60,525 nucleotides of DNA from Bacillota bacterium (lineage in GTDB: Bacteria; Bacillota; Dethiobacteria; DTU022), in assembly GCA_019428945.1 (NCBI GenBank), contig JAHYJM010000007.1, forward strand, positions 1 through 60,525, given 5' to 3'. The notes below the pieces were generated by a model, which did no database searches, was not told where the DNA came from, and saw only the letters and a list, made by a program, of their open reading frames with translations. Position 1 is the first letter of the stretch; each line of letters starts with the position of its first letter. Position numbers and translations under genes: made by a program. Shown here piece after piece: positions 935 through 40,314 of this stretch.

Positions 935-1984
935 TCACTCCTCCCCAGACCGTTCCGGGTCAAAGGAACAGACAGGTCCTTCGCTTTTATCTACCAGATG
1001 GCAGGCAACAAAATGCCCACTGCCGCAATGATCAAATGAAGGCTCAACTTCTCTGCATATATCTTCGGCCAGCCAACAACGGGTATTAAAACAGCAGCCC
1101 AGACCACGATCTTGCGCACTGGGCACGGAACCTTCAAGGATTATTCTTTTCTTTTCCAGCCTCGGATTTGGTACGGGTACAGCCGATAAAAGCGCCTTTG
1201 TGTAAGGGTGCAGTGGCGCGCTGTATAAATCAACCCTGTGGGCAAGCTCAACAATTTTGCCAAGGTACATAACTGCGATACGGTCAGATATGTGCTTTAC
1301 CACAGAAAGATCGTGCGAAATAAAGAGGTAAGTTAAACCAAACTCTTGCTGTAAATCTTCAAGCAGGTTGATTGTTTGAGATTGAATTGACACATCAAGA
1401 GCTGAAACCGGTTCATCGCAGACAATAAATTTAGGGTTTAGAGCAAGCGCTCTGGCCACACCGATTCGCTGCCTCTGTCCACCGGAAAATTCATGAGGAA
1501 AACGCTTTGAATGTGAGGGGCTCAACCCTACGACTTCAAGCAACGAGGCAACTCTCGTTTTCAGTTCGGCCTTTTTATGAACACCATATATGATCAGCGG
1601 TTCAGAAACTATTTCTTCAACCGTCATTCTCGGGTTTAATGAATCGCAGGGATCCTGGAATATTATTTGCATGTTTCGACGGAAATCGCGAAGATCTTTT
1701 TTCGACAGGTTAAACACATCAGTATCTTCAAAATAGACATTCCCGGATGTAGCTTTCTCCAGGCAAATGATCACACGGCCCAATGTCGTTTTACCACAAC
1801 CCGATTCACCAACGAGACCCAATGTTTCTCCCCTCAGGATATCAAAACTTACTCCATCAACAGCTTTCAAAAAATCGCTTTTGAGCGACATAAGCCCTTC
1901 TCTTACCGGAAACCATTTTGTAAGCTGATCCACTTTGATTAAAGTTTCAGCACCAACTGTCACTTCCAGTTCGGTGATGTTCAA
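935..1984 (-). CDS. dppF: dipeptide/oligopeptide ABC transporter ATP-binding protein, DppF/OppF type
   Basis: This cytoplasmic ATPase powers the peptide importer with its DppD partner. From the preferred start, the Walker A is at about residues 59-66 (GESGCGKT), the ABC signature FSGGQRQ at about 166-172 and Walker B FIVCDEP at about 186-192. A C-terminal Cys-containing oligopeptide-transporter extension (around '[11 protein letters not shown]') follows. I take TTG at 1984 as the start: GGGAGG sits 10 bases upstream and the codon lies one base after the dppD stop. An ATG-type reading from 2023 would overlap dppD and add an unlikely N-terminus. The downstream dppB follows at 4 bases, so the genes are clearly co-transcribed. 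Confidence 0.9.
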
Positions 1985-1985
1985 A

Positions 1986-2993
1986 TTAAACCAGCCTCCC
2001 TTCGGGTTTTTTATCGGCAACAAGCCAGCAGCTCACGCTGCGATTTTCTCCCAGGTTAGTAATATGTGGCTCTTCCATTCTGCATTTTTCCATAGCAAAA
2101 TTACAGCGGGGGTGAAACTTACAGCCCTGGGGAAGGGAGGAAAGATCAGGCACTGTGCCAGGAATTACCTGCAGCCGATCCTTGATTTCGTCTATCCTGG
2201 GAAGTGAATCCAGAAGACCGCGGGTATAGGGATGTTTGGGATCCTCAAAGAGAGTAATCACATCAGCCTCTTCAACTATTTTGCCACCATACATAACAAT
2301 TACCCTTTCAGCAACTTCGGCTATGACACCGAGATCATGGGTGATAAACATAATTGCTGTGCCGATTTCTCTTTTTAGTTTTTTCATCAGCTCCAGAATC
2401 TGTGCTTGTATAGTTACATCGAGGGCAGTGGTCGGTTCATCGGCGATCAGCAGTTTAGGATTGCATGAAAGAGCCATGGCGATCATCACCCGCTGTCGCA
2501 GGCCGCCTGAAAGTTGAAAAGGGTAAGACCTGAAACGCAAATCTGGTTGGGGGACACCAACCAGATCAAACATCTCTATCGTTTTTTCTTTTGCTTTTTG
2601 CTTTGATAGATTCTGGTGCAGACGGAAAACTTCAACCAACTGATCCCCGACTGTCATTACAGGGTTTAAAGAAGTCATCGGTTCCTGGAAGATCATCGAA
2701 ATATGATTTCCTCTGACTTTACACATTTCATGATCATTCTTCTGAAGGAGATCTTCATTTTCAAAAAGAATCGTTCCTGCTTCGATTTTACCAACGCGTT
2801 TGGGGATTAATCCCATCACGCTTAGCGAGGTCACGCTCTTGCCGCATCCCGATTCACCCACAATGCCAAGGGTTTCACCACTCTTGATCTTAAAGCTAAC
2901 CCCATCAACTGCTTTTACTACTCCGCCGAAAGTATAAAAGTATGTTTTCAGGCCATTTACATCCAGCAGATTATAATTAGAACCTAAATTCAT
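1986..2993 (-). CDS. dppD: dipeptide/oligopeptide ABC transporter ATP-binding protein, DppD/OppD type
   Basis: This is the first gene of the leftward peptide-uptake operon and encodes the second ATPase subunit. Walker A GESGCGKS is at about residues 46-53, the Q-loop FQEP near 102, signature LSGGLRQ at 161-167 and Walker B LLIADEP at 181-187. The C-terminal extension has the typical GCKFHPRC motif of DppD/OppD proteins. ATG at 2993 is chosen because AAAGGTGG is 6 bases upstream; an ATG-equivalent 24 bases further up lacks a ribosome site. The gene opposite is a divergent-free gap of about 265 bases, where the operon promoter should lie. I saw only a weak CodY-like sequence there. Confidence 0.9.
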
Positions 2994-3258
2994 CAAATTC
3001 CACCTTTCTAAAACCAATCAGCAGCGGTAATAATATACTTTGGGGTGCCGGGAATCCGGCAAACATTAACTTACAGATTAATAGGCTATTGTTCGCGATT
3101 AACATAATAATTCCCTGCAAAAATTATTATTTTCTCATAAAACTGTATTAAATGCAGATTCCACTATCTTTAAAGATTCGCTTAATCCAACTGGAAAATA
3201 CAAATTAAAAGAACTTTTGTATCTGGAGGTAAAAAAAGAAGAATATAGAGGAAGGTAA

Positions 3259-3909
3259 TCAGGAAGATTGCAGAAGCGCCCGGGCCGGAAGAGCTTCAAC
3301 ACCTTCTATCTTCAGCGGCATTAAAATAAGGGTGTAATCACCGGCTGGAACTTCAGCCAGCCGCAAACCTTCCAGGATCCAGATACCGGCTTTCAGCAGA
3401 GTTTTATGGGTATCATGCTCAGGTTGATCTCTTTCAATACCGAGGGCATCAATACCCACCCCTGCAACCCCTTTTTCTGTCAGGTATTCTGCCCCGCTTT
3501 TTTCCAGAAAAACAAATGAAAAATCGAAAATATCGTTTAAGGAATTTACTGTTTTAAGCAGAACAGAGCTTCCGGGCCTGATTAATGCTGCACCTGGAGG
3601 CGCTGTTTTTTCTTTCTCTTTCAGGTCAGAAACAGTGATTCGATCCCGGGAGAGCGAAGTAAAATCGAGAAGAACAGCGGAAGTGAAAAAGTTTTCTTCA
3701 CTCCATGATTCCGATGAATCTCCATCCGGAATCATATGCCTGGGCATATCAACGTGGGTACCGGAATGCAGGTCAAAATCGAGGCGGGTTTCATAGACTG
3801 AACCACTTTTAAAATCACTGCTAATTGTAAAGCGGGGTTTTTTATCATCCCTGTTCTTATACACGGTCATGTCAGGCTTTATAGCCATCGAAATGTCGTA
3901 GAGAACCAT
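3259..3909 (-). CDS. cyclase family protein (kynurenine formamidase/KynB-like)
   Basis: This 216-residue protein matches the metal-dependent cyclase/arylformamidase family (PF04199 type). The diagnostic metal-binding motif HSGTHVDMPRH is at about residues 48-58, and a conserved 'GVGIDALGIERDQPEH' stretch lies near 150-165. The family hydrolyses N-formylkynurenine or related amides and lactones. No tryptophan catabolic gene is nearby, so kynurenine is not assured as the substrate. GGAGG lies 8 bases before the ATG at 3909. The gene stands alone between the peptide operon and the broken zwf remnant, both on the same strand. Confidence 0.8.
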   Translation of the reverse strand: MVLYDISMAIKPDMTVYKNRDDKKPRFTISSDFKSGSVYETRLDFDLHSGTHVDMPRHMIPDGDSSESWSEENFFTSAVLLDFTSLSRDRITVSDLKEKEKTAPPGAALIRPGSSVLLKTVNSLNDIFDFSFVFLEKSGAEYLTEKGVAGVGIDALGIERDQPEHDTHKTLLKAGIWILEGLRLAEVPAGDYTLILMPLKIEGVEALPARALLQSS

Positions 3910-9745: not shown

Positions 9746-12145
9746 ATGCGAAAGAAATGGCTTTTAGCTTTAATTCTTATTGTATTTATTTCCCTGTTAA
9801 TCATAACCGGGATAATAATTCAGGTTGTGCGCGGCAGCCTGCCTGAAACCAGTGGAACGATAAAAACAGGTGTCAAGAATAAAGTTGAGATCTACCGTGA
9901 TCAATACAGTGTGCCTCATATAATAGCGGACACTATGGAAGATTTGTTTTTTGCACAGGGTTACGCTCAGGCCCAGGACCGTCTCTGGCAAATGGATATG
10001 AGCAGGCGCGGCGTGGGAGGAAAACTTTCTGAAATATTAGGTGAAGATATGTCAGAAACAGATCTCTTTACCTTAACAGTAGGGTTTTACCGCGCTGCTG
10101 AAAATAATTTAACTCTTCTGGATCCGGAAGCATTGGCACTGCTCGAAGCTTATGCAGAGGGAGTTAATGCCTTTATAGCAGACAACTCAGATCGCCTTCC
10201 CCCCGAATTCAGGCTAATCGGTTACAAGCCAGAGCCGTGGAAACCTCTTGACAGTCTTGCAATTGCAGTCTACATGTCATGGTATTTAGGGGGGAATATG
10301 CAGACCGAGCTTTTTCACAGCGCCCTGATAGAAGTGGTTGGCACCCCGCTTACCAGTGAAATCTTTCCTGATTACCCTGACTATGGTCCTATCATTGCTC
10401 CTGGTGATAACCTGGCAAAACAGGAATACACTGAAGTAAATGTTGAAGGCCTGATCGCTCTTTCAAGAATTGCTGAATTGAGTGGAAAAACAAAATATGT
10501 TCCCGGCCTCGGCTCAAATAACTGGGTGATCAGCGGTGACCTGACTCCGGAAGGCGGAGCCATACTGGCTAACGATATGCACCTTGCGATGGGGTTACCT
10601 TCTATTTGGCACCAGGCTCATCTGATTATCCCTGACCGGTTCAATGTTACAGGGGTTATGTTTCCTGGCATTCCCGGTATTATTGTCGGGTTCAATGAAA
10701 ATATAGCATGGGGTGTAACCAATACCGGGCCTGATGTGCAGGATTTGTACCGGCTTGAACTTAACCCTGATAACACACATCAATACCGCTATCTTGATCA
10801 GTGGGTCGACGCAGAAATTATTCGCGAAGAATTCTGGGTAAAGGGAGAAGATAGGCCAAGAGAGATTGAGGTTATGATCACCCGGTTTGGGCCGGTAATA
10901 AGTTCTGTTGTTGAAATTGAAACTCCGCTTAGCTTACGCTGGGCAGCGCTTGAAGGAACTAAAGAGTTCAGAGCAATTCTGGATCTTATGTCAGCGGCCG
11001 ACTGGAACGACTTCACTACTGCGCTTGAAAACTTCATGGTTCCAGCTCAAAACTTCGTCTACGCAGATGTTAATGGGAATATTGGTTATCGTGCAAACGG
11101 GCTTATCCCAATTCGCCGCAGCGGAAATGGCCTTCTGCCTGCAGATGGCACTACAGATGAATTTGAGTGGACCGGTTATATACCATGGGATGAACTGCCA
11201 ACGCTCTACAACCCTCCGGAAGGCATAATTGTTACAGCCAACCACCGCATCACTGATGATGATTACCCCTACTTCATCACTACCTCCTGGGCACCCCCAT
11301 ACAGGGCGATGGGAATCTGGCGGGAATTTGAAGGGGCAGAGAACTTTACACTTGAAGATATAATCAGAGCCCAAACCAGCTTCTACAATACTCAGGCAGA
11401 AACTCTGGCTCCAGTGCTGACAAGGGCGCTGGAAGAAGCAACCCTGGAAGAAGCTGAGTTGAGCGCAGCGGAACTTTTTATGGAATGGCTGGAAAGCCCC
11501 TATGAAACTGTTGATTCAGTCGGCGCAACCATATATAACTGTCTTTATGCCCAGATGCTTGAGAAAACGTTTGCTGATGAAATGGGTGAAGAGCTTTACG
11601 AACGCTTTCTGCATAACAGGGCCAGTTCAAATGCATTTGATCGGATGCTTCTTAGCGGTGAATCGGGCTGGTTCAACAATGTCAGCACAGAGGAAACAGA
11701 AACCCGTGATGACATGATAGAAGAAGCTTTTAAATCAACTGTTGCATTCATCAGTTCGGAATTGGGCGCTGACCAGGCCAATTGGAACTGGGGAGAACTT
11801 CACACAATTACACTGAAGCATAATATGGGCTCAGTAGCTCTGCTGGCCCGCTTTTTCAACCGCGGGCCCTACCCGGTCGGCGGCAGTTTTCATACACCTG
11901 CTAATATGAGCTACCTGTTGACTGAACCCTTCGAGGCAACTCATTCCGCTCCCTGGCGTTACATGATAGATCTAAGCAATCACAGGGCCATAGATGCCTT
12001 AGCCGGGGGCAATTCAGGTCATCTTCTGAGCGATCATTATGATGACCAGACTAATATGTGGTTAAACGGTGAATATAAAAATATGATCTTCTATCCGGAC
12101 GAAGTCAGATCATTAACCGAAAAACTTGTGCTCGAACCGAAATGA
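9746..12145 (+). CDS. penicillin acylase family protein (Ntn hydrolase), membrane-anchored or secreted
   Basis: The 799-residue precursor resembles penicillin G acylase and acyl-homoserine-lactone/cephalosporin acylases. An uncleaved anchor or signal segment occupies about residues 5-28. The alpha chain contains 'YGxxxxAQDRLWQMD' near 73-84. The beta chain would begin at Ser257 in GLGSNNW, where the family self-cleaves so that this serine is the catalytic N-terminal nucleophile. NDMHL near 275 and VTNTGPDVQDLY follow as expected. GGAGGAG is 5 bases before the ATG. No operon partner is tight: the PFK gene follows after 73 bases. The substrate (beta-lactam side chain, acyl lactone or N-acyl amino acid) cannot be told. 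Confidence 0.92.
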   Translation: MRKKWLLALILIVFISLLIITGIIIQVVRGSLPETSGTIKTGVKNKVEIYRDQYSVPHIIADTMEDLFFAQGYAQAQDRLWQMDMSRRGVGGKLSEILGEDMSETDLFTLTVGFYRAAENNLTLLDPEALALLEAYAEGVNAFIADNSDRLPPEFRLIGYKPEPWKPLDSLAIAVYMSWYLGGNMQTELFHSALIEVVGTPLTSEIFPDYPDYGPIIAPGDNLAKQEYTEVNVEGLIALSRIAELSGKTKYVPGLGSNNWVISGDLTPEGGAILANDMHLAMGLPSIWHQAHLIIPDRFNVTGVMFPGIPGIIVGFNENIAWGVTNTGPDVQDLYRLELNPDNTHQYRYLDQWVDAEIIREEFWVKGEDRPREIEVMITRFGPVISSVVEIETPLSLRWAALEGTKEFRAILDLMSAADWNDFTTALENFMVPAQNFVYADVNGNIGYRANGLIPIRRSGNGLLPADGTTDEFEWTGYIPWDELPTLYNPPEGIIVTANHRITDDDYPYFITTSWAPPYRAMGIWREFEGAENFTLEDIIRAQTSFYNTQAETLAPVLTRALEEATLEEAELSAAELFMEWLESPYETVDSVGATIYNCLYAQMLEKTFADEMGEELYERFLHNRASSNAFDRMLLSGESGWFNNVSTEETETRDDMIEEAFKSTVAFISSELGADQANWNWGELHTITLKHNMGSVALLARFFNRGPYPVGGSFHTPANMSYLLTEPFEATHSAPWRYMIDLSNHRAIDALAGGNSGHLLSDHYDDQTNMWLNGEYKNMIFYPDEVRSLTEKLVLEPK

Positions 12146-27288: not shown

Positions 27289-28353
27289 ATGAATGTTACG
27301 GTCATCGGCGCAGGAAATTCTGGACTTGCTATGGCGGCTCATCTTAGTAAAGAGGGCAATAAAGTGACTTTGTGGAATCATTCAAGATCAACAATTTCAA
27401 AATTAATGGAAACGCATATTATTTATTGCGAGGGAGGCATTCAAGGCGCTATTAACATTGATCTGGTGACAGATAATATAAAAATCGCACTTAAAACACC
27501 CGATATTATTTTAATCACGACACCTGCTCATTCCCATAAAGAACTTGCTGAACTTATTGCTGTAAATATCGAAAAAGAAACGATTATTATATTAAATCCG
27601 GGCAGAACATTTGGGGCGTTGGAGTTTCAGAATGTATATCGGACTCATAACAACAAAATTACACAAACGATTGCTGAAACTCAAACTATTATTTATACAT
27701 GCAGAAAAACTGCAGAAGATGCTGTAAACATCATCACCTTTAAAAATCAAGTTTTAATCTCAACATTTAAGGTCGAAGAAAACCAAGCTGTGATCAATCA
27801 GCTGCCTGAATGCCTTAAAAAATACTTCATTCCAGCTGAATCAATGGTCCAAACATCAATTGGTAATGTTGGAATGGTGTTGCACTGTGCACCTTTACTG
27901 TTAAACACTGGTTGGACAGAGAGTAAAAACAGTACTTACAAATACTATTTTGAAGGAATTACTCCGACCATTGGGAAATTGCTAGAAAGAATTGATGAAG
28001 AAAGAGTGATGGTATCAGAAGCATTAGGGTTTAAGGTCGAAACGACAAAAGAATGGTTGATTAGAACCTATCATGTCACAGGTAAAAATATTTATGAGTG
28101 TATCCAAAATAATAAATCCTATGAAACAATAGAGGCTCCTGGCTCCTTAAAGCATAGATATATTTTTGAAGATATCCCTTGTGGATTGGTTCCGCTGGAA
28201 TCTATTGGGTTAAAATTAGGATTATCAATGAGCCACACTAGCTTAATCATTGATTTGGCAGTAAGATTATTGGATTATGACTTTCGGAAGGAAGGAAGAG
28301 GTTTGTTTTTTCTACACAATGGCAATGGAGAAATGGATATAGAGTCTTTTTAA
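27289..28353 (+). CDS. opine-type (octopine/nopaline) NAD(P)-dependent dehydrogenase
   Basis: The 354-residue enzyme fits the NAD/NADP octopine/nopaline dehydrogenase family. The dinucleotide motif GAGNSG is at 7-12 in an N-terminal Rossmann domain (VTVIGAGNSGLAMAAHL), followed by the opine dehydrogenase helical domain with a GNVGMVLH segment near 200. Members reductively join an amino acid amine to a 2-oxoacid, giving N-carboxyalkyl amino acids. ATG at 27289 is preferred, with AAGGGAG 8 bases upstream. A B12-binding mutase-like gene follows after 15 bases and an ATP-grasp ligase after that; together they suggest one biosynthetic unit. The real substrates cannot be told from sequence. Confidence 0.85.
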   Translation: MNVTVIGAGNSGLAMAAHLSKEGNKVTLWNHSRSTISKLMETHIIYCEGGIQGAINIDLVTDNIKIALKTPDIILITTPAHSHKELAELIAVNIEKETIIILNPGRTFGALEFQNVYRTHNNKITQTIAETQTIIYTCRKTAEDAVNIITFKNQVLISTFKVEENQAVINQLPECLKKYFIPAESMVQTSIGNVGMVLHCAPLLLNTGWTESKNSTYKYYFEGITPTIGKLLERIDEERVMVSEALGFKVETTKEWLIRTYHVTGKNIYECIQNNKSYETIEAPGSLKHRYIFEDIPCGLVPLESIGLKLGLSMSHTSLIIDLAVRLLDYDFRKEGRGLFFLHNGNGEMDIESF

Positions 28354-28368
28354 AGGGTGGGAAAGATC

Positions 28369-30276
28369 ATGTTTGATATTGAATCGAATGTGTATGGATT
28401 TATTAAGCCTACACTTGATGCTCATACACTAGGCATTCACGCAGTGGCTGAGCTTTTAGAAGATTGCGGATATAGAGTGATTATCGCCGGTGATGTGATC
28501 GCCAGGGCAATGGATGACTACCGGCATGAAACAAAAAGAAAAGTTGTTGTGGAGTGGATTCTAAGCAGTAAAATCAATCAAATCGGACTTAGCTATAGGT
28601 TAGATCATAGTGATGCTGTTAACATGATTGGCTTCCTCATTAACGAATTGAAAATAAATCACTTGCTCTCTTATCAGGGCGGACCTATCAAATCTATCTT
28701 TTTTGGCGGTCTTCCCGAGGCGTGTGAAATGATCGAAGCGGCCTTTAGTGGGTTAGTGAAGACATTCATTGGGGGAGAGTCTGTCCGTGAGACACTGATA
28801 AAAATGGACGTACCTGAAATGAAAATTCCAAGGGATATAATTCGAGGCAGCCTATACGATGATGAGCGAATGGAGTTTGGAAAAAAAATAATTGACTCTC
28901 AAGAATATTGTCAATTTATGCCTGTTGATCGTTCTGGTTATTTGGAGTATGGCACAAAAAAAGATACCGTTGTTAAAAGAATTGCAGCAAATTTGGAACC
29001 ATCCTTTGCCCCATTGATACGCGCCCATGCTGGATCTTATTCGTCCTCGATAAGTCGAACGGATTCTGTTAAGGAATTTATATCTTGGTCAAAAATATTA
29101 GCAGACACAAAGTATTTGGATATTCTTTCAATTGGAAGTTCACAATTAACACAATCGAATTTCGGTGAAGTTTGGGAGGGCAAAACAAATGGTGGTGGTG
29201 TTCCCATCAATTCTCCGGAAGAATATCAAATGATATGGGATGCTTCAAGACCACTTTTAGTGAGAACTTATGCAGGAACAAAGAATGTGCCCAGTTTAGC
29301 CCAAATGCATGAGCGGACACTTAATACCTGTTGGCATGCTTTATCGTTATGGTGGTTTAATCAGTTGGACGAAAGAGGCCCATATGATTTATATACTAAT
29401 TTGAAGCAACATATTGATACACTGAAATATATCGCAAAGACGGATAAACCTTTTGAACCCAATGTTGCCCATCATTTTTCGTTCCGTGGTGCTGATGACG
29501 TTACTTATATTGTAGCGGCATATTTATCGGCTAAGCTAGCAAAAAAATACGGTATTAAAAAGCTTATTTTACAAAATATGCTGAACACGCCCAAATTAAC
29601 ATGGGGAATTCAGGATCTGGCAAAATCAAGAGCAATGATCAAATTAATCAAAGGACTGGAAAACGCTAATTTCAGTATATTGTTACAGCCGAGAGCAGGG
29701 TTGGATTATTTTAAACCCAACATGGATGAAGCAAAAATGCAGTTAGCAGCGGTGACTGCATTAATGGACGATATAGATCCGCACAATGAATCAAGTCCTC
29801 CGATAGTTCATGTTGTCAGTTATTCTGAAGCATCCAACCTGGCAACACCAGAGATCATCAACGAAAGCATCCAAATCACACAGTATTCATTACAAGAATA
29901 CCGTAAGTTCAGACGAAACGGAAAAGTGGAGGATATGAGTAAAAATGAAGAATTGCAGGAAAGAATGAACGACCTTTTCCATGCTGCTAGAGCTATCATC
30001 TTCGCCATCGAGACAGTGATATACAATCCATACTCAGCCGAAGGTTTCTACAAAATATTTTCGGCAGGATTCTTGCCGGTACCATATTTATGGAGAGAAG
30101 TTGAAGAATTCAAATATGCAAAAGCATGGAAAACCAGACAGATTAAGGGGAGTGTGAAAATCGTCGATGAGGAAAACAAACCAATGAAAACTGAGCAAGT
30201 ATTAAAAATTGCTATAAATAATATTCATAACGCTGAATACAATTTAAAGCAAAGAATCACTAAAAATTTGAAATAA
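28369..30276 (+). CDS. cobalamin-binding, glutamate-mutase-like protein with fused small and large domains
   Basis: The 635-residue protein begins with a B12-binding domain: D17-x-H19-x-x-G22, GLSYRL at 73-78 and FFGG at 111-114, the same order as in glutamate mutase S subunits. A catalytic-barrel-like domain follows (about 205-560), with 'DILSIGSSQLTQSN', RTYAGT and LQPRAG at 439-444, which recall methylaspartate mutase E. The E and S parts are separate in classical enzymes. An adenosylcobalamin-dependent carbon skeleton or amino group rearrangement is inferred, but no PLP lysine motif is evident. ATG at 28369 has AAAGGGTGGG upstream. The tight position after the opine dehydrogenase implies a shared transcript. 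Confidence 0.75.
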   Translation: MFDIESNVYGFIKPTLDAHTLGIHAVAELLEDCGYRVIIAGDVIARAMDDYRHETKRKVVVEWILSSKINQIGLSYRLDHSDAVNMIGFLINELKINHLLSYQGGPIKSIFFGGLPEACEMIEAAFSGLVKTFIGGESVRETLIKMDVPEMKIPRDIIRGSLYDDERMEFGKKIIDSQEYCQFMPVDRSGYLEYGTKKDTVVKRIAANLEPSFAPLIRAHAGSYSSSISRTDSVKEFISWSKILADTKYLDILSIGSSQLTQSNFGEVWEGKTNGGGVPINSPEEYQMIWDASRPLLVRTYAGTKNVPSLAQMHERTLNTCWHALSLWWFNQLDERGPYDLYTNLKQHIDTLKYIAKTDKPFEPNVAHHFSFRGADDVTYIVAAYLSAKLAKKYGIKKLILQNMLNTPKLTWGIQDLAKSRAMIKLIKGLENANFSILLQPRAGLDYFKPNMDEAKMQLAAVTALMDDIDPHNESSPPIVHVVSYSEASNLATPEIINESIQITQYSLQEYRKFRRNGKVEDMSKNEELQERMNDLFHAARAIIFAIETVIYNPYSAEGFYKIFSAGFLPVPYLWREVEEFKYAKAWKTRQIKGSVKIVDEENKPMKTEQVLKIAINNIHNAEYNLKQRITKNLK

Positions 30277-30313
30277 TAAATATAGGCGATCAAACTGAGG
30301 AGGTATGTACACG

Positions 30314-31294
30314 ATGTACGTAGGACTGTTATGCACACCGGCAGACGCCTTCAAAACAAGAGATGCATCGCTTGATCCTCATGGCTCCGAACAGATGGAT
30401 CTGACCATGAAGGCTATTGAAAAAGCTCTATTGAATATTGGTCATAAAGTTGTGCGGATCCCGGCGACCACAAACTTGCTCGAGGACATCAAAGCCATCG
30501 AAGGTATAGAGATCATCTTCAATACCTGCACCGGTATCACTAGCAAAATGCAGCAAGCAAATGTCGTAGCAATGTTGGAGCTGATGGATCTCCCATTTGT
30601 AGGCTCCGGGTTGTCTGCCCACATATTCGGCTTACATAAACAAATTAGTAAGTACCTGTTTCGGAGCGTCGGTGTCCCGACCGCTAACTTCCAGATATTT
30701 TATAGCGGGGAAGAGGCAGTAGATTTATCACTGAATTACCCACTGATTATCAAACCGGAACACGAAGGATCGAGCCTTGGGATCACCGAAGACAGCGTCG
30801 TCCATGATGAAGAACAGCTCAGGGCCGGTGTCAGGCGGATCTTCAAGCTGTTCCGACAACCCGCTCTCGCTGAGGAATTTATTACCGGGCGCGAATTTAC
30901 AATTGGCGTACTCGGCAATGACAATCTAGAAGTGCTCCCAATTCAGGAGATCATCTACGATACGGCAGACGGCAAAGGCTTTATGACTGTCGACATTAAA
31001 GCCAGAGATGCTATCGGTACCGTTTGCCCTGCCAATCTGGACAATGCAACAGTCGTAAAAATTAAAGATTATGCCACCAAGGCTTTCAAAGTAATTAACT
31101 GTAAGGAATACGCACGTATCGATGTGCGTTTGGATGCCGAAGAAATACCATATTTCCTTGAAATTAACACTCTTCCGGGCATGCAACCTGCATACAGCGA
31201 CTTTCCAAGGGTAGCTTATGCCGCTGGCTATACCTATGATTCCCTGATCCAGAAAATGCTGGCATTATCCATGGATAGAAATGAGAAACGCTAG
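30314..31294 (+). CDS. D-alanine-D-alanine ligase-like ATP-grasp enzyme
   Basis: The 326-residue protein is of the Ddl/ATP-grasp type, joining a carboxylate to an amine through an acyl phosphate. Visible features are 'YPLIIKPEHEGSSLGI' (phosphate loop), EEFITGREFTIGVLG, and EINTLPGM near the end, which holds Mg-ATP ligands. It lacks the classic N-terminal Ddl layout in detail, so it may use non-alanine substrates. GGAGGT is 9 bases before the ATG at 30314, one base before an ATG at 30305, which is less likely. It lies 37 bases after the B12 gene and closes the three-gene cluster. Its role with an opine dehydrogenase and a mutase is unknown; ligation of a rearranged amino acid or opine is a reasonable inference. 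Confidence 0.85.
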   Translation: MYVGLLCTPADAFKTRDASLDPHGSEQMDLTMKAIEKALLNIGHKVVRIPATTNLLEDIKAIEGIEIIFNTCTGITSKMQQANVVAMLELMDLPFVGSGLSAHIFGLHKQISKYLFRSVGVPTANFQIFYSGEEAVDLSLNYPLIIKPEHEGSSLGITEDSVVHDEEQLRAGVRRIFKLFRQPALAEEFITGREFTIGVLGNDNLEVLPIQEIIYDTADGKGFMTVDIKARDAIGTVCPANLDNATVVKIKDYATKAFKVINCKEYARIDVRLDAEEIPYFLEINTLPGMQPAYSDFPRVAYAAGYTYDSLIQKMLALSMDRNEKR

Positions 31295-32344: not shown

Positions 32345-32519
32345 ATAGATGAATAAATCATTTAACAGCAGAGTTATTGTAGCACAGCGTCAGGTAAATG
32401 GCAAGAAAACATGCCATATTAAAACATGCCATATTGACAGGCCAGGGAGCAGTGCTTTTTACTCTATTTGTTTCAGGGTATAATGGAACCTGAAGTTATA
32501 GAAAGAGGAAGTGCAGCGG

Positions 32520-33551
32520 ATGAAATCATTCTTAAAACGTTATCTCGTTGGCGGCAGGGTTCTGAAAACTGCACTCGCCGTAACTATTTCTATATTTCTG
32601 GCTCAACAGCTTGGTCTCGAGCGAATTACTGTGGCGGCTATTGTTGCCCTGCTTACAGTGCAGAGAAGTTTTTACTATTCACTGGTTCAAAGCATGGCAA
32701 AGCTAGGCAGCGTTCTGATAGGAGGCATACTGGGCACAGCTTTCAGTTACATCTTTGGAATGACACCGCTTGGTTACGGGCTGGTAACCCTGGCTGCCAT
32801 TTATATCTGCCTGCGTCTTAACTGGCAGGATCATATAGCATTAACTTCGGTTACAGCAATTACAATAATTTTTAGCGGCACAAACCTGCCTTTGACTTTT
32901 TCATTTGAACATATTCTGACTGCTCTGCTTGGAGCGGTTTGCGCTCTTGGAGTCAACCTGCTTTTTACACCAAACCACAGGAAAGATGTGCTTGAAAAAC
33001 TGCGGCAGACGGAAGCCGGTTTACGCCGGGCTATCGATTTTATTATTATGGAAATGGAAGATCCCGGCCATGACGATCAGGAATTTCGCGAAGAGGTAGC
33101 CAAGCTTCATCAGATAATTAACGAGGGAATGGAAACGGCCAAGCTACTCAGGGAAGAACAGCGTTTCATCATTACCCGCGAAACTGATTCTGACCGTTAC
33201 CGTCAAACTTTTCATATCTGCAGTTCCCAGTTAAACCGTCTTGAAGAAATGCACAATCTGGCACTGCGCATGCCCGTTAAAGTGCCACATGCTGAACCTC
33301 TGGTCAGGCTGTTTAAGATTGTGCAAAAACTGCAGTTCAGGCGTATCCACGGGAAACAGGGCCATTACGACACTATTGAAAAACTGCTTTTAAAGCTGGA
33401 ACAAAGCTTTGCCAAGCTCGATCTGCCACGGTCAAGAGAAGAATTTATCAGCCGCGCTTCACTTTTTCATCTCTTCCAGGAGATCAAGCGCTACTATCGC
33501 CGGATGCAAAAAATGCCGGAAGATCTTCTTACCAGTCCACTACACAAATAG
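32520..33551 (+). CDS. aromatic acid exporter/FUSC-like membrane protein
   Basis: The 343-residue protein has a cluster of hydrophobic segments over about residues 15-150 (VLKTALAVTISIFLAQQLG, ILGTAFSYIFG and others). A long, charged helical C-terminus with NPGHD-like and RFIITRETDSDRYRQ segments follows, the pattern of the aromatic acid exporter family YgaE/ArAE_1. Such proteins are thought to extrude aromatic acids but few have been tested. ATG at 32520 has AGAGGAAG 8 bases upstream; a GTG at 32511 is too close to that site. It ends 18 bases before the convergent rdgB gene. Confidence 0.8.
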   Translation: MKSFLKRYLVGGRVLKTALAVTISIFLAQQLGLERITVAAIVALLTVQRSFYYSLVQSMAKLGSVLIGGILGTAFSYIFGMTPLGYGLVTLAAIYICLRLNWQDHIALTSVTAITIIFSGTNLPLTFSFEHILTALLGAVCALGVNLLFTPNHRKDVLEKLRQTEAGLRRAIDFIIMEMEDPGHDDQEFREEVAKLHQIINEGMETAKLLREEQRFIITRETDSDRYRQTFHICSSQLNRLEEMHNLALRMPVKVPHAEPLVRLFKIVQKLQFRRIHGKQGHYDTIEKLLLKLEQSFAKLDLPRSREEFISRASLFHLFQEIKRYYRRMQKMPEDLLTSPLHK

Positions 33552-39099: not shown

Positions 39100-40314
39100 T
39101 TAATAAAGGTTCCTGAATAGATGCTCAGCCAAACGGTATACTTCCTTTAACGGAAGTCCAGATTTAGATGCTACAGCAATGCAATCTTCATATTCAGGGG
39201 CGAAGTTTAAGGACATGCGATTATCCATACCCGGTGTATATTTAATGCGAATTGGACCCCATTTGGTTTCTACAGTTATGATATCTCTCTGCTGCATCAC
39301 TTTTCTTACCGAAGAGACGCGAAGACCAAGAGTTGTAGTTTCATTAAATATAACTGCCTGGAGTTTGCTGACAAGGAATGGAGGTGAAAGCACCGTTAGC
39401 TGAACAGACGGTCGATTTTTTTTCATCTGTATAGGCGTAAAATATACATCTTGGGCTCCTGCTGCGAAGAGTTTCTCCATCAGATAGCCAAATATCTCCG
39501 GATTGAGATCATCAATATTTGTTTCTATAAGGCATGCCTCTTCTTCATATGCTACAGCATCCGCGTCTCTGAATCCGTAAATCAAGCGCAGAAAATTGGG
39601 GTAGCCCGGATCGTGTGACCCAGCGCCATAACCAACAGCATCAATATTGAAATCGGGCAACCTGCCGAAAGAACCGGCCAGGGTAACAATTAATGCCGCC
39701 CCGGTAGGTGTAACTAATTCAAAAGCAACATCCCGGCCACTGACAGGCGCCTGTTGCTTTGCTATAAGTTCCAGGGTAGCCGGGGCAGGTAGCGGCAATC
39801 TGCCATGCGCGGTCATTACTTCACCACGGCCAAGAGGCAGGCTGGAGGAAACAATTGTATCAACACCGAGCAGGTAGAGAGCGCAAACACTGCCCACTAT
39901 GTCAACAATTGCATCTATTGCACCTACCTCATGAAAATGGACGCGTTCTACAGAAATTCCGTGTACCGCTGCCTCTGCCTCAGCCAGGCTGCGAAAAACG
40001 GACTCGCTGTTGTCTTTTACCTGATCAGGCAGATCAGAACTCTTAATTATTTTCAGAATGTCGGAAAGATGTCTTTCCACTTTACTGTTTTCTTCGAGAT
40101 TGACAACTGCTCTGGAGCCGGCAATACCTCCCCGGGTTACCCTTTCAACTTCCAGGCTGAATCCGGATAAATTTAACCCGGTCAGCATCTTTTGCAGGCT
40201 TTCTAAATCGAGCCCCAGATCTAACAGCGCTCCCAGAACCATGTCGCCACTAATTCCGCTGTAACAATCAAAATATAAGATTTTTCCGCCACCTGATGCT
40301 GCGTATTCATTCAT
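39100..40314 (-). CDS. larC: nickel-pincer cofactor biosynthesis protein LarC
   Basis: The 404-residue LarC inserts nickel into the pincer cofactor used by lactate racemase. It opens KILYFDCYSGISGDMVLGAL, with 'RVHFHEVGAIDAIVDIVG' near 125, the 'GRLPLPAPATLELI' region and a C-terminal 'CLIETNIDDLNPEIFGYLME' segment. Some homologues need a ribosomal frameshift to make the full protein; here one continuous frame covers it. LarC begins ATG at 40314 and its start overlaps the larB stop by 4 bases (ATGA). LarA and LarE are not in the window. Confidence 0.92.
   Translation of the reverse strand: MNEYAASGGGKILYFDCYSGISGDMVLGALLDLGLDLESLQKMLTGLNLSGFSLEVERVTRGGIAGSRAVVNLEENSKVERHLSDILKIIKSSDLPDQVKDNSESVFRSLAEAEAAVHGISVERVHFHEVGAIDAIVDIVGSVCALYLLGVDTIVSSSLPLGRGEVMTAHGRLPLPAPATLELIAKQQAPVSGRDVAFELVTPTGAALIVTLAGSFGRLPDFNIDAVGYGAGSHDPGYPNFLRLIYGFRDADAVAYEEEACLIETNIDDLNPEIFGYLMEKLFAAGAQDVYFTPIQMKKNRPSVQLTVLSPPFLVSKLQAVIFNETTTLGLRVSSVRKVMQQRDIITVETKWGPIRIKYTPGMDNRMSLNFAPEYEDCIAVASKSGLPLKEVYRLAEHLFRNLY

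Follow-up and report, generated by a model that had tools for sequence, protein, structure and literature searches.

The window analysed here, a 60,525-nucleotide stretch of contig JAHYJM010000007.1 (positions 1 to 60,525, assembly GCA_019428945.1) from a member of the Bacillota (Dethiobacteria, DTU022), carries a cluster of three genes for an opine dehydrogenase (ODH), a single-chain mutase-like protein of the adenosylcobalamin (AdoCbl) type and an ATP-grasp ligase resembling D-Ala-D-Ala ligase (Ddl). As the first-pass annotation of this DNA had described, the genes are co-directional: all three open reading frames (ORFs) were confirmed on the + strand, with intergenic gaps of 15 and 37 nt when counted from ATG starts at 27289, 28369 and 30314, and direct reading of the sequence finds a Shine-Dalgarno-like stretch before each start. 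No further co-directional gene belongs to the window cluster. Residue numbers of the mutase count from GTG 28357, the ORF-list start four codons upstream of ATG 28369.

27289..28353, + strand: opine dehydrogenase (PF02317, 354 aa, ATG start), with NAD-binding GAGNSG and the dyad His199/Asp295
28369..30276, + strand: single-chain AdoCbl mutase-like protein, an N-terminal B12-binding domain fused to a glutamate-mutase-E-like TIM barrel
28390..28806, + strand: B12-binding domain of the mutase, about residues 12-150, placed by model secondary structure, column counts and PF02310 in 28 of 53 relatives
28999..30192, + strand: glutamate-mutase-E-like catalytic barrel of the mutase, residues 215-612, placed by hhalign to GlmE and Foldseek to 1cb7_B
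30314..31294, + strand: Ddl-like ATP-grasp ligase of a distinct subfamily (PF07478, 326 aa)

Three enzyme families at the locus

The family names proposed at first pass hold for all three proteins. The ODH is a member of the opine dehydrogenase family: it matches PF02317 (Octopine_DH) with E = 3e-42 and 144.5 bits, against a curated cut-off of 30, and has both the Rossmann GxGxxG motif and the catalytic His and Asp. Its closest solved structure is N-(1-D-carboxyethyl)-L-norvaline dehydrogenase (1bg6, E = 3e-65), and His199, Asp295 and Arg106 are invariant in 95 of 95 ODHs from modules of this kind. It shares full-length homology, the catalytic His/Asp and the NAD(P) motif with this enzyme and with octopine dehydrogenase (PF02317; 1bg6, 3c7a), and opine formation is the activity predicted from its sequence. 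Unlike those enzymes, the module ODHs adjoin a family of AdoCbl mutases. Related ODHs lacking a mutase occur in a different context at four other loci (L221-L224), flanked by genes for a probable RpiR-type regulator and for a membrane protein, probably glutamate-symporter-like, with no Pfam match at 1e-5.

The middle protein is harder to recognize. Taken alone, it gave nothing over cut-off in Pfam, NCBIfam and PDB searches, with a B12-binding match only at E = 0.01 and no PF06368 match over threshold. An alignment of 53 family sequences (A3), drawn from whole genomes and from a single scan of a genome collection, gave a profile that returned only noise against PDB sequences. Its relationship to the E subunit of glutamate mutase (GlmE) is drawn from member-wise Pfam searches, profile comparison and structure. 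PF02310 (B12-binding) is found in 28 of the 53 sequences (best 1.9e-13) and PF06368 (Met_asp_mut_E) in 10 (best 1.7e-8), and hhalign of the family against 17 true GlmE sequences aligns 338 columns (prob 94.6, E = 6.8e-8). Structure prediction had been proposed at first pass as a check for a cobalamin pocket; at the level of the fold, the AlphaFold model of the window protein (pLDDT 91.3, pTM 0.91) agrees with an AdoCbl mutase: the top Foldseek match in the PDB is glutamate mutase E (1cb7_B, E = 1e-10, TM 0.64 by target), followed by lysine 5,6-aminomutase and isobutyryl-CoA mutase.

The B12 motifs quoted at first pass are present and conserved. In the model, D21xH23xxG26 follows strand 1, S79-Y-R81-L82 ends strand 3 and F-G118 follows strand 4, the placement seen in cobalamin-binding domains; H23, G26, R81, L82 and G118 are invariant in 53/53 sequences and D21 is kept in 43/53. 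Relatives are also associated with AdoCbl accessory proteins. One is fused to MutL (L047), long fused forms occur by reading at three further loci (L009, L010, L048), MutL adjoins the mutase in L166 and L180, and a CobA adenosyltransferase gene overlaps it in L081 (and, by reading, in L082). In view of these fusions and neighbours, and given the modelled fold, the GlmE profile match and the invariant H23 and G26, the middle protein is almost certainly to be classed as a predicted AdoCbl mutase. The mutase gene of L013 (genome G224, 1498-3401) is interrupted near residue 390, apparently through a frameshift or an error of assembly.

Sequence comparison indicates that this protein is probably not a glutamate mutase. 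We take the substrate-binding claw of GlmE to comprise Arg66, Arg100, Arg149 and Glu171, as in the GlmE structure, with the alignment numbering offset by 41. These positions align with His224, Gln266, Arg303 and Asp338, so that three of the four compared glutamate-binding residues are swapped for others, and only the equivalent of Arg149 (R303) is kept; the replacements and R303 are invariant in the 53 family members. Glutamate is thus an unlikely substrate, since neither R66 and R100 of the arginine claw nor E171 is retained. The window-family mutase shares with glutamate mutase (GlmS/GlmE; PF02310 and PF06368; 1cb7) the DxHxxG B12 domain, a homologous TIM barrel and the Arg149 equivalent, but it differs in the claw residues and the partner genes, and it is one chain of 635-639 aa rather than separate S and E subunits.

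The ligase matches PF07478 (E = 8e-42) and shares the C-terminal ATP-grasp domain of D-Ala-D-Ala ligase, but it belongs to a separate subfamily. When aligned with three Ddls, one of them the genome's own, the subfamily is seen to lack both GGxSxEHxVS, which forms the first D-Ala site, and the FYDYxAKY loop; most members carry (N/D)PHGxxQ and GxxPxYSxxP in their place. D-Ala-D-Ala synthesis is unlikely, since these Ddl signatures are lacking. We also considered whether the window gene could be the housekeeping Ddl, and this was ruled out because the genome carries another Ddl, on contig C59, and the motifs differ.

The dehydrogenase-mutase pair and its partners in other genomes

The genes co-occur in other genomes, one of the checks set at first pass, and the module is a conserved unit, although not an obligate trio. 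In a sample of 399 genomes of the phylum, 84 of the 86 with the mutase also have the ODH (at least 100 bits). Conversely, the ODH at 200 bits or more is found in 88 genomes, 82 of which have the mutase, and the ligase subfamily at the same minimum score in 26, 25 of which have it; genome G289 has the ligase without a mutase. The mutases fall into two subfamilies about 30% identical, a window-type form of ~630 aa, with hosts among Clostridia, Erysipelotrichaceae, Bacteroidales and Aminicenantes, and a wider form of ~550 aa. The ODH is adjacent in most of the 61 window-type loci and in 53 of the 63 more distant, wide-type loci having a mutase ORF. For adjacent pairs, the distance matrices of the two proteins are correlated (Mantel r 0.72, reached in 0/2000 permutations; 0.84 and 0.90 within subfamilies). 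Since the module is conserved across phyla, it does not reflect a chance arrangement. Window-type mutases without an adjacent ODH are seen at nine loci (L050-L053, L058, L097, L099, L102 and L109), in the Clostridium ultunense group and Aminicenantes; in L109 an ODH lies ~6 kb away.

The ligase is more variable. The same ligase stands beside the pair in 13 distant loci, at 37-56% identity and in several orders and orientations; this count leaves out L145 and L156, where the matching proteins are true Ddls. Among window-type loci, L055 has a ligase 61% identical to that of the window, placed first (an FMN-reductase-like gene precedes it), and L094 and L106 have more distant ones. Ligases of a 400-aa ATP-grasp_4 type lie directly 5' of the ODH or mutase in ten loci (L078-L080, L083, L090, L098, L100, L101, L103, L107) and downstream of the pair, one ORF away, in L096, and another ATP-grasp type is found near the pair in L041, L091 and L092. 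Most genomes have the pair without a ligase. Thus, the core is the ODH and the mutase, and the ligase is a genuine but optional partner. Because in most genomes the pair lacks a ligase and yet is complete, ligation is best seen as an optional tailoring step, an obligate trio is ruled out, and the order mutase, ligase, dehydrogenase suggested at first pass is not favoured.

Riboswitch and polysaccharide contexts

Two contexts of the relatives, neither foreseen in the first-pass annotation, point to osmolyte or envelope biosynthesis. The first is a c-di-AMP riboswitch (RF00379, ydaO/yuaA), which an Rfam scan places on the same strand, 6-398 nt 5' of the first module gene, in 22 of 43 wide-family loci (L145, L153, L166 and L173 among them), upstream of either the ODH or the ligase. 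Three of these loci (L163, L170, L193) have the order riboswitch-ligase-ODH-mutase, and L166 has a five-gene operon of riboswitch-ODH-ligase-thioesterase-MutL-mutase. Thirty genomes searched whole contain 51 c-di-AMP riboswitches, 24 of them at the module, and in several genomes the one at the module is the only one; the module may be a main target of these riboswitches in several genomes. Of the 22 loci, 14 have an intrinsic terminator behind the aptamer, against 0.5 expected from mononucleotide shuffles, and this arrangement has the predicted layout of an OFF switch. No cobalamin riboswitch was reported by the Rfam scan in the window or in 62 other loci. c-di-AMP riboswitches are known to control osmotic-shock and cell-wall genes, high c-di-AMP signalling the absence of osmotic distress, and a tandem Na+/c-di-AMP switch governs ablA, the gene of an osmolyte mutase (PMC9337991, PMC7288161). 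The presence of the riboswitch in relatives thus argues for osmolyte or envelope biosynthesis rather than for a metallophore.

The second context is found in Bacteroidales and some Clostridia (including the wide-type locus L225), where the pair lies inside polysaccharide clusters that also encode glycosyltransferases and a DegT aminotransferase. Pairs in these capsule or O-antigen clusters are translationally coupled to other ATP-grasp ligases, and a nucleotidyltransferase is also present. The window pair and most Firmicutes pairs lie outside polysaccharide clusters. At four loci, a YbaK/ProX-type aminoacyl-tRNA editing protein is encoded 3' of the pair (L086, confirmed as PF04073, L088, L089 and L093), and by reading another lies a few genes off in L062; such a neighbour would fit a risk of tRNA mischarging with an unusual amino acid.

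The proposed pathway and its alternatives

With confidence evenly balanced, we propose that the module is a small biosynthetic pathway for an opine-type product, which would serve as an osmolyte in many Firmicutes and as a polysaccharide decoration in gut bacteria. The model builds on the computed families, folds, conservation and co-occurrence, on the riboswitch and terminators of relatives and on the association with adenosyltransferase and MutL. The AdoCbl-dependent mutase would rearrange an amino acid by radical chemistry, and the ODH would carry out an NAD(P)H-dependent reductive coupling of an amino acid with a 2-oxoacid. The core product would be an N-(carboxyalkyl) amino acid of the opine type that either includes the rearranged residue or is derived from it, and an opine-like amino-acid derivative, as suggested at first pass, remains plausible. 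Where present, the ligase would add an optional tailoring step, using ATP to activate a carboxylate and then forming an amide bond. For many Firmicutes we expect c-di-AMP to switch the pathway off, so that it is on under osmotic stress, which makes a compatible solute the most likely product; the related pairs of gut Bacteroidales and Clostridia, together with another ATP-grasp ligase, would make a product that probably decorates surface polysaccharide. In either setting, a new amino-acid-like molecule with a protective or surface role is the probable product. A broader formulation, which we put forward tentatively and hold as somewhat doubtful, is of an undescribed widespread pathway in which a single-chain AdoCbl radical mutase family acting on a non-glutamate substrate feeds an ODH and an ATP-grasp ligase. 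On this view the pathway would yield a new class of opine-type amino acids, which Firmicutes would use as osmolytes under c-di-AMP control and which gut bacteria would have recruited to decorate their polysaccharides.

The proposed scheme has parallels in known pathways. The N-epsilon-acetyl-beta-lysine pathway, with its lysine 2,3-aminomutase AblA under Na+ and c-di-AMP riboswitches, likewise joins a radical mutase, an unusual osmoprotective amino acid and c-di-AMP shut-off (PMC9337991), but AblA is a radical SAM rather than an AdoCbl enzyme, and its partner is an acetyltransferase rather than an ODH. The trio of reaction types also recalls pyrrolysine biosynthesis, by logic only and with no homology claimed for the mutases or dehydrogenases. 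That pathway uses the mutase PylB, the ATP-grasp ligase PylC and the dehydrogenase PylD.

Several observations count against the proposed model. No c-di-AMP riboswitch is present in the window or its genome, nor beside the pair in the 19 window-type loci scanned, so that the osmolyte role is carried over from the wide subfamily, whose mutase is only ~30% identical, and we infer that the window copy acts like its riboswitch-controlled relatives. The riboswitch is also not specific to osmolytes, since cell-wall genes are likewise controlled by c-di-AMP (PMC7288161). A search of the window genome found no MutL, although two CobA/CobO-type adenosyltransferases are present. The hypergeometric p-values for co-occurrence ignore genome relatedness, overstate independence and serve as a guide only. 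The substrate of the mutase is a further weak point, as it is inferred in the same way as the product, the order of steps and the physiological role. Finally, the G+C content at third codon positions is 0.31-0.35 in the ODH and mutase genes, 0.51 in the ligase gene and 0.40-0.56 in most neighbours; with such different base compositions, the pair and the ligase may have separate histories, and because the pair is AT-rich and the ligase resembles its surroundings, the three-gene assembly in the window may be recent.

This difference in composition also bears on the reading that only the ODH and mutase cooperate and that the window ligase lies there by accident and acts on an unrelated substrate. 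The variable position and orientation of the ligase and its absence beside most pairs favour that reading, as does G289, in which a member of the ligase subfamily (L206, 4377-8985) lies without a mutase in a row with genes for AdoMet decarboxylase, spermidine synthase, DctM transporter and an FMN reductase similar to that of L055. However, the mutase is present in all other genomes with this subfamily at 200 bits or more (25/26), and we consider an accidental ligase unlikely. A more serious contender is envelope chemistry, in which the product would be an unusual amino-acid building block, an opine or amide, for capsule, O-antigen or peptidoglycan rather than a free osmolyte, with the Ddl-like ligase making a dipeptide-like unit. 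Some bacterial polysaccharides bear opines, alanopine and N-epsilon-(1-carboxyethyl)lysine among them, and the coupling to ATP-grasp ligases within polysaccharide clusters of Bacteroidales and some Clostridia fits this use, as does riboswitch control of cell-wall genes. Most Firmicutes pairs, the window's included, are nonetheless found away from such clusters, and the ligase subfamily lacks the Ddl signatures, leaving this reading on the improbable side.

The remaining alternatives fit the data less well. The match of the mutase fold to lysine 5,6-aminomutase as well as to glutamate mutase, and the presumably anaerobic life of many hosts, would suit a fermentative role in which an amino acid is first rearranged by the mutase and its product then oxidatively deaminated by the ODH homologue, in the way that 3,5-diaminohexanoate dehydrogenase follows lysine 5,6-aminomutase. 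Against such catabolism stand an ATP-consuming partner ligase, the capsule-cluster context, the c-di-AMP OFF switch with its terminators, the retained catalytic His/Asp of opine dehydrogenases and the lack of any recurrent catabolic gene set beside the pair, and we regard it as quite unlikely. ODHs also make staphylopine-type metallophores, which raised the idea of an opine exported and then re-imported with its metal. Yet the ODH is the only likeness to those operons: no CntL-like or nicotianamine-synthase-like enzyme, exporter, importer or metal-responsive regulator is seen in the cluster, nor do such partners recur in relatives, which are regulated by c-di-AMP instead. We rejected this highly improbable reading for want of these partners; the first-pass annotation had itself drawn the comparison with such operons, and its remark that the cluster has no exporter was correct.

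Elsewhere in the window, the nearest export-type gene encodes an aromatic-acid-exporter-like protein (32511-33551, + strand) 1.2 kb 3' of the ligase, with no obvious co-transcription. Further away are genes for a LarC-type nickel insertion protein (39100-40314, - strand) and a 799-aa penicillin amidase family protein (9746-12145, + strand). A search of a plasmid collection gave no match.

In summary, the first-pass reading is supported in part: the families and the conserved unit hold and an opine-like product is plausible, but an obligate trio and the proposed step order find no support. Each enzyme belongs to a known superfamily, but the mutase family, like the pathway, appears not to have been described before. 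As the first-pass annotation had suspected, the full-text literature searched contains no description of the combination, although a table of the primary ydaO papers may have an entry for an octopine/nopaline dehydrogenase. About one-fifth of the sampled genomes of the phylum carry the pair, and several have their only c-di-AMP riboswitch there. If the model is true, it would add a family to the AdoCbl mutases and, possibly, a class to the known osmolytes (or an amino acid to those of the envelope), and it would provide a directly testable answer to the question of what these riboswitches control, and it would suggest a B12-dependent step in the response to osmotic stress.

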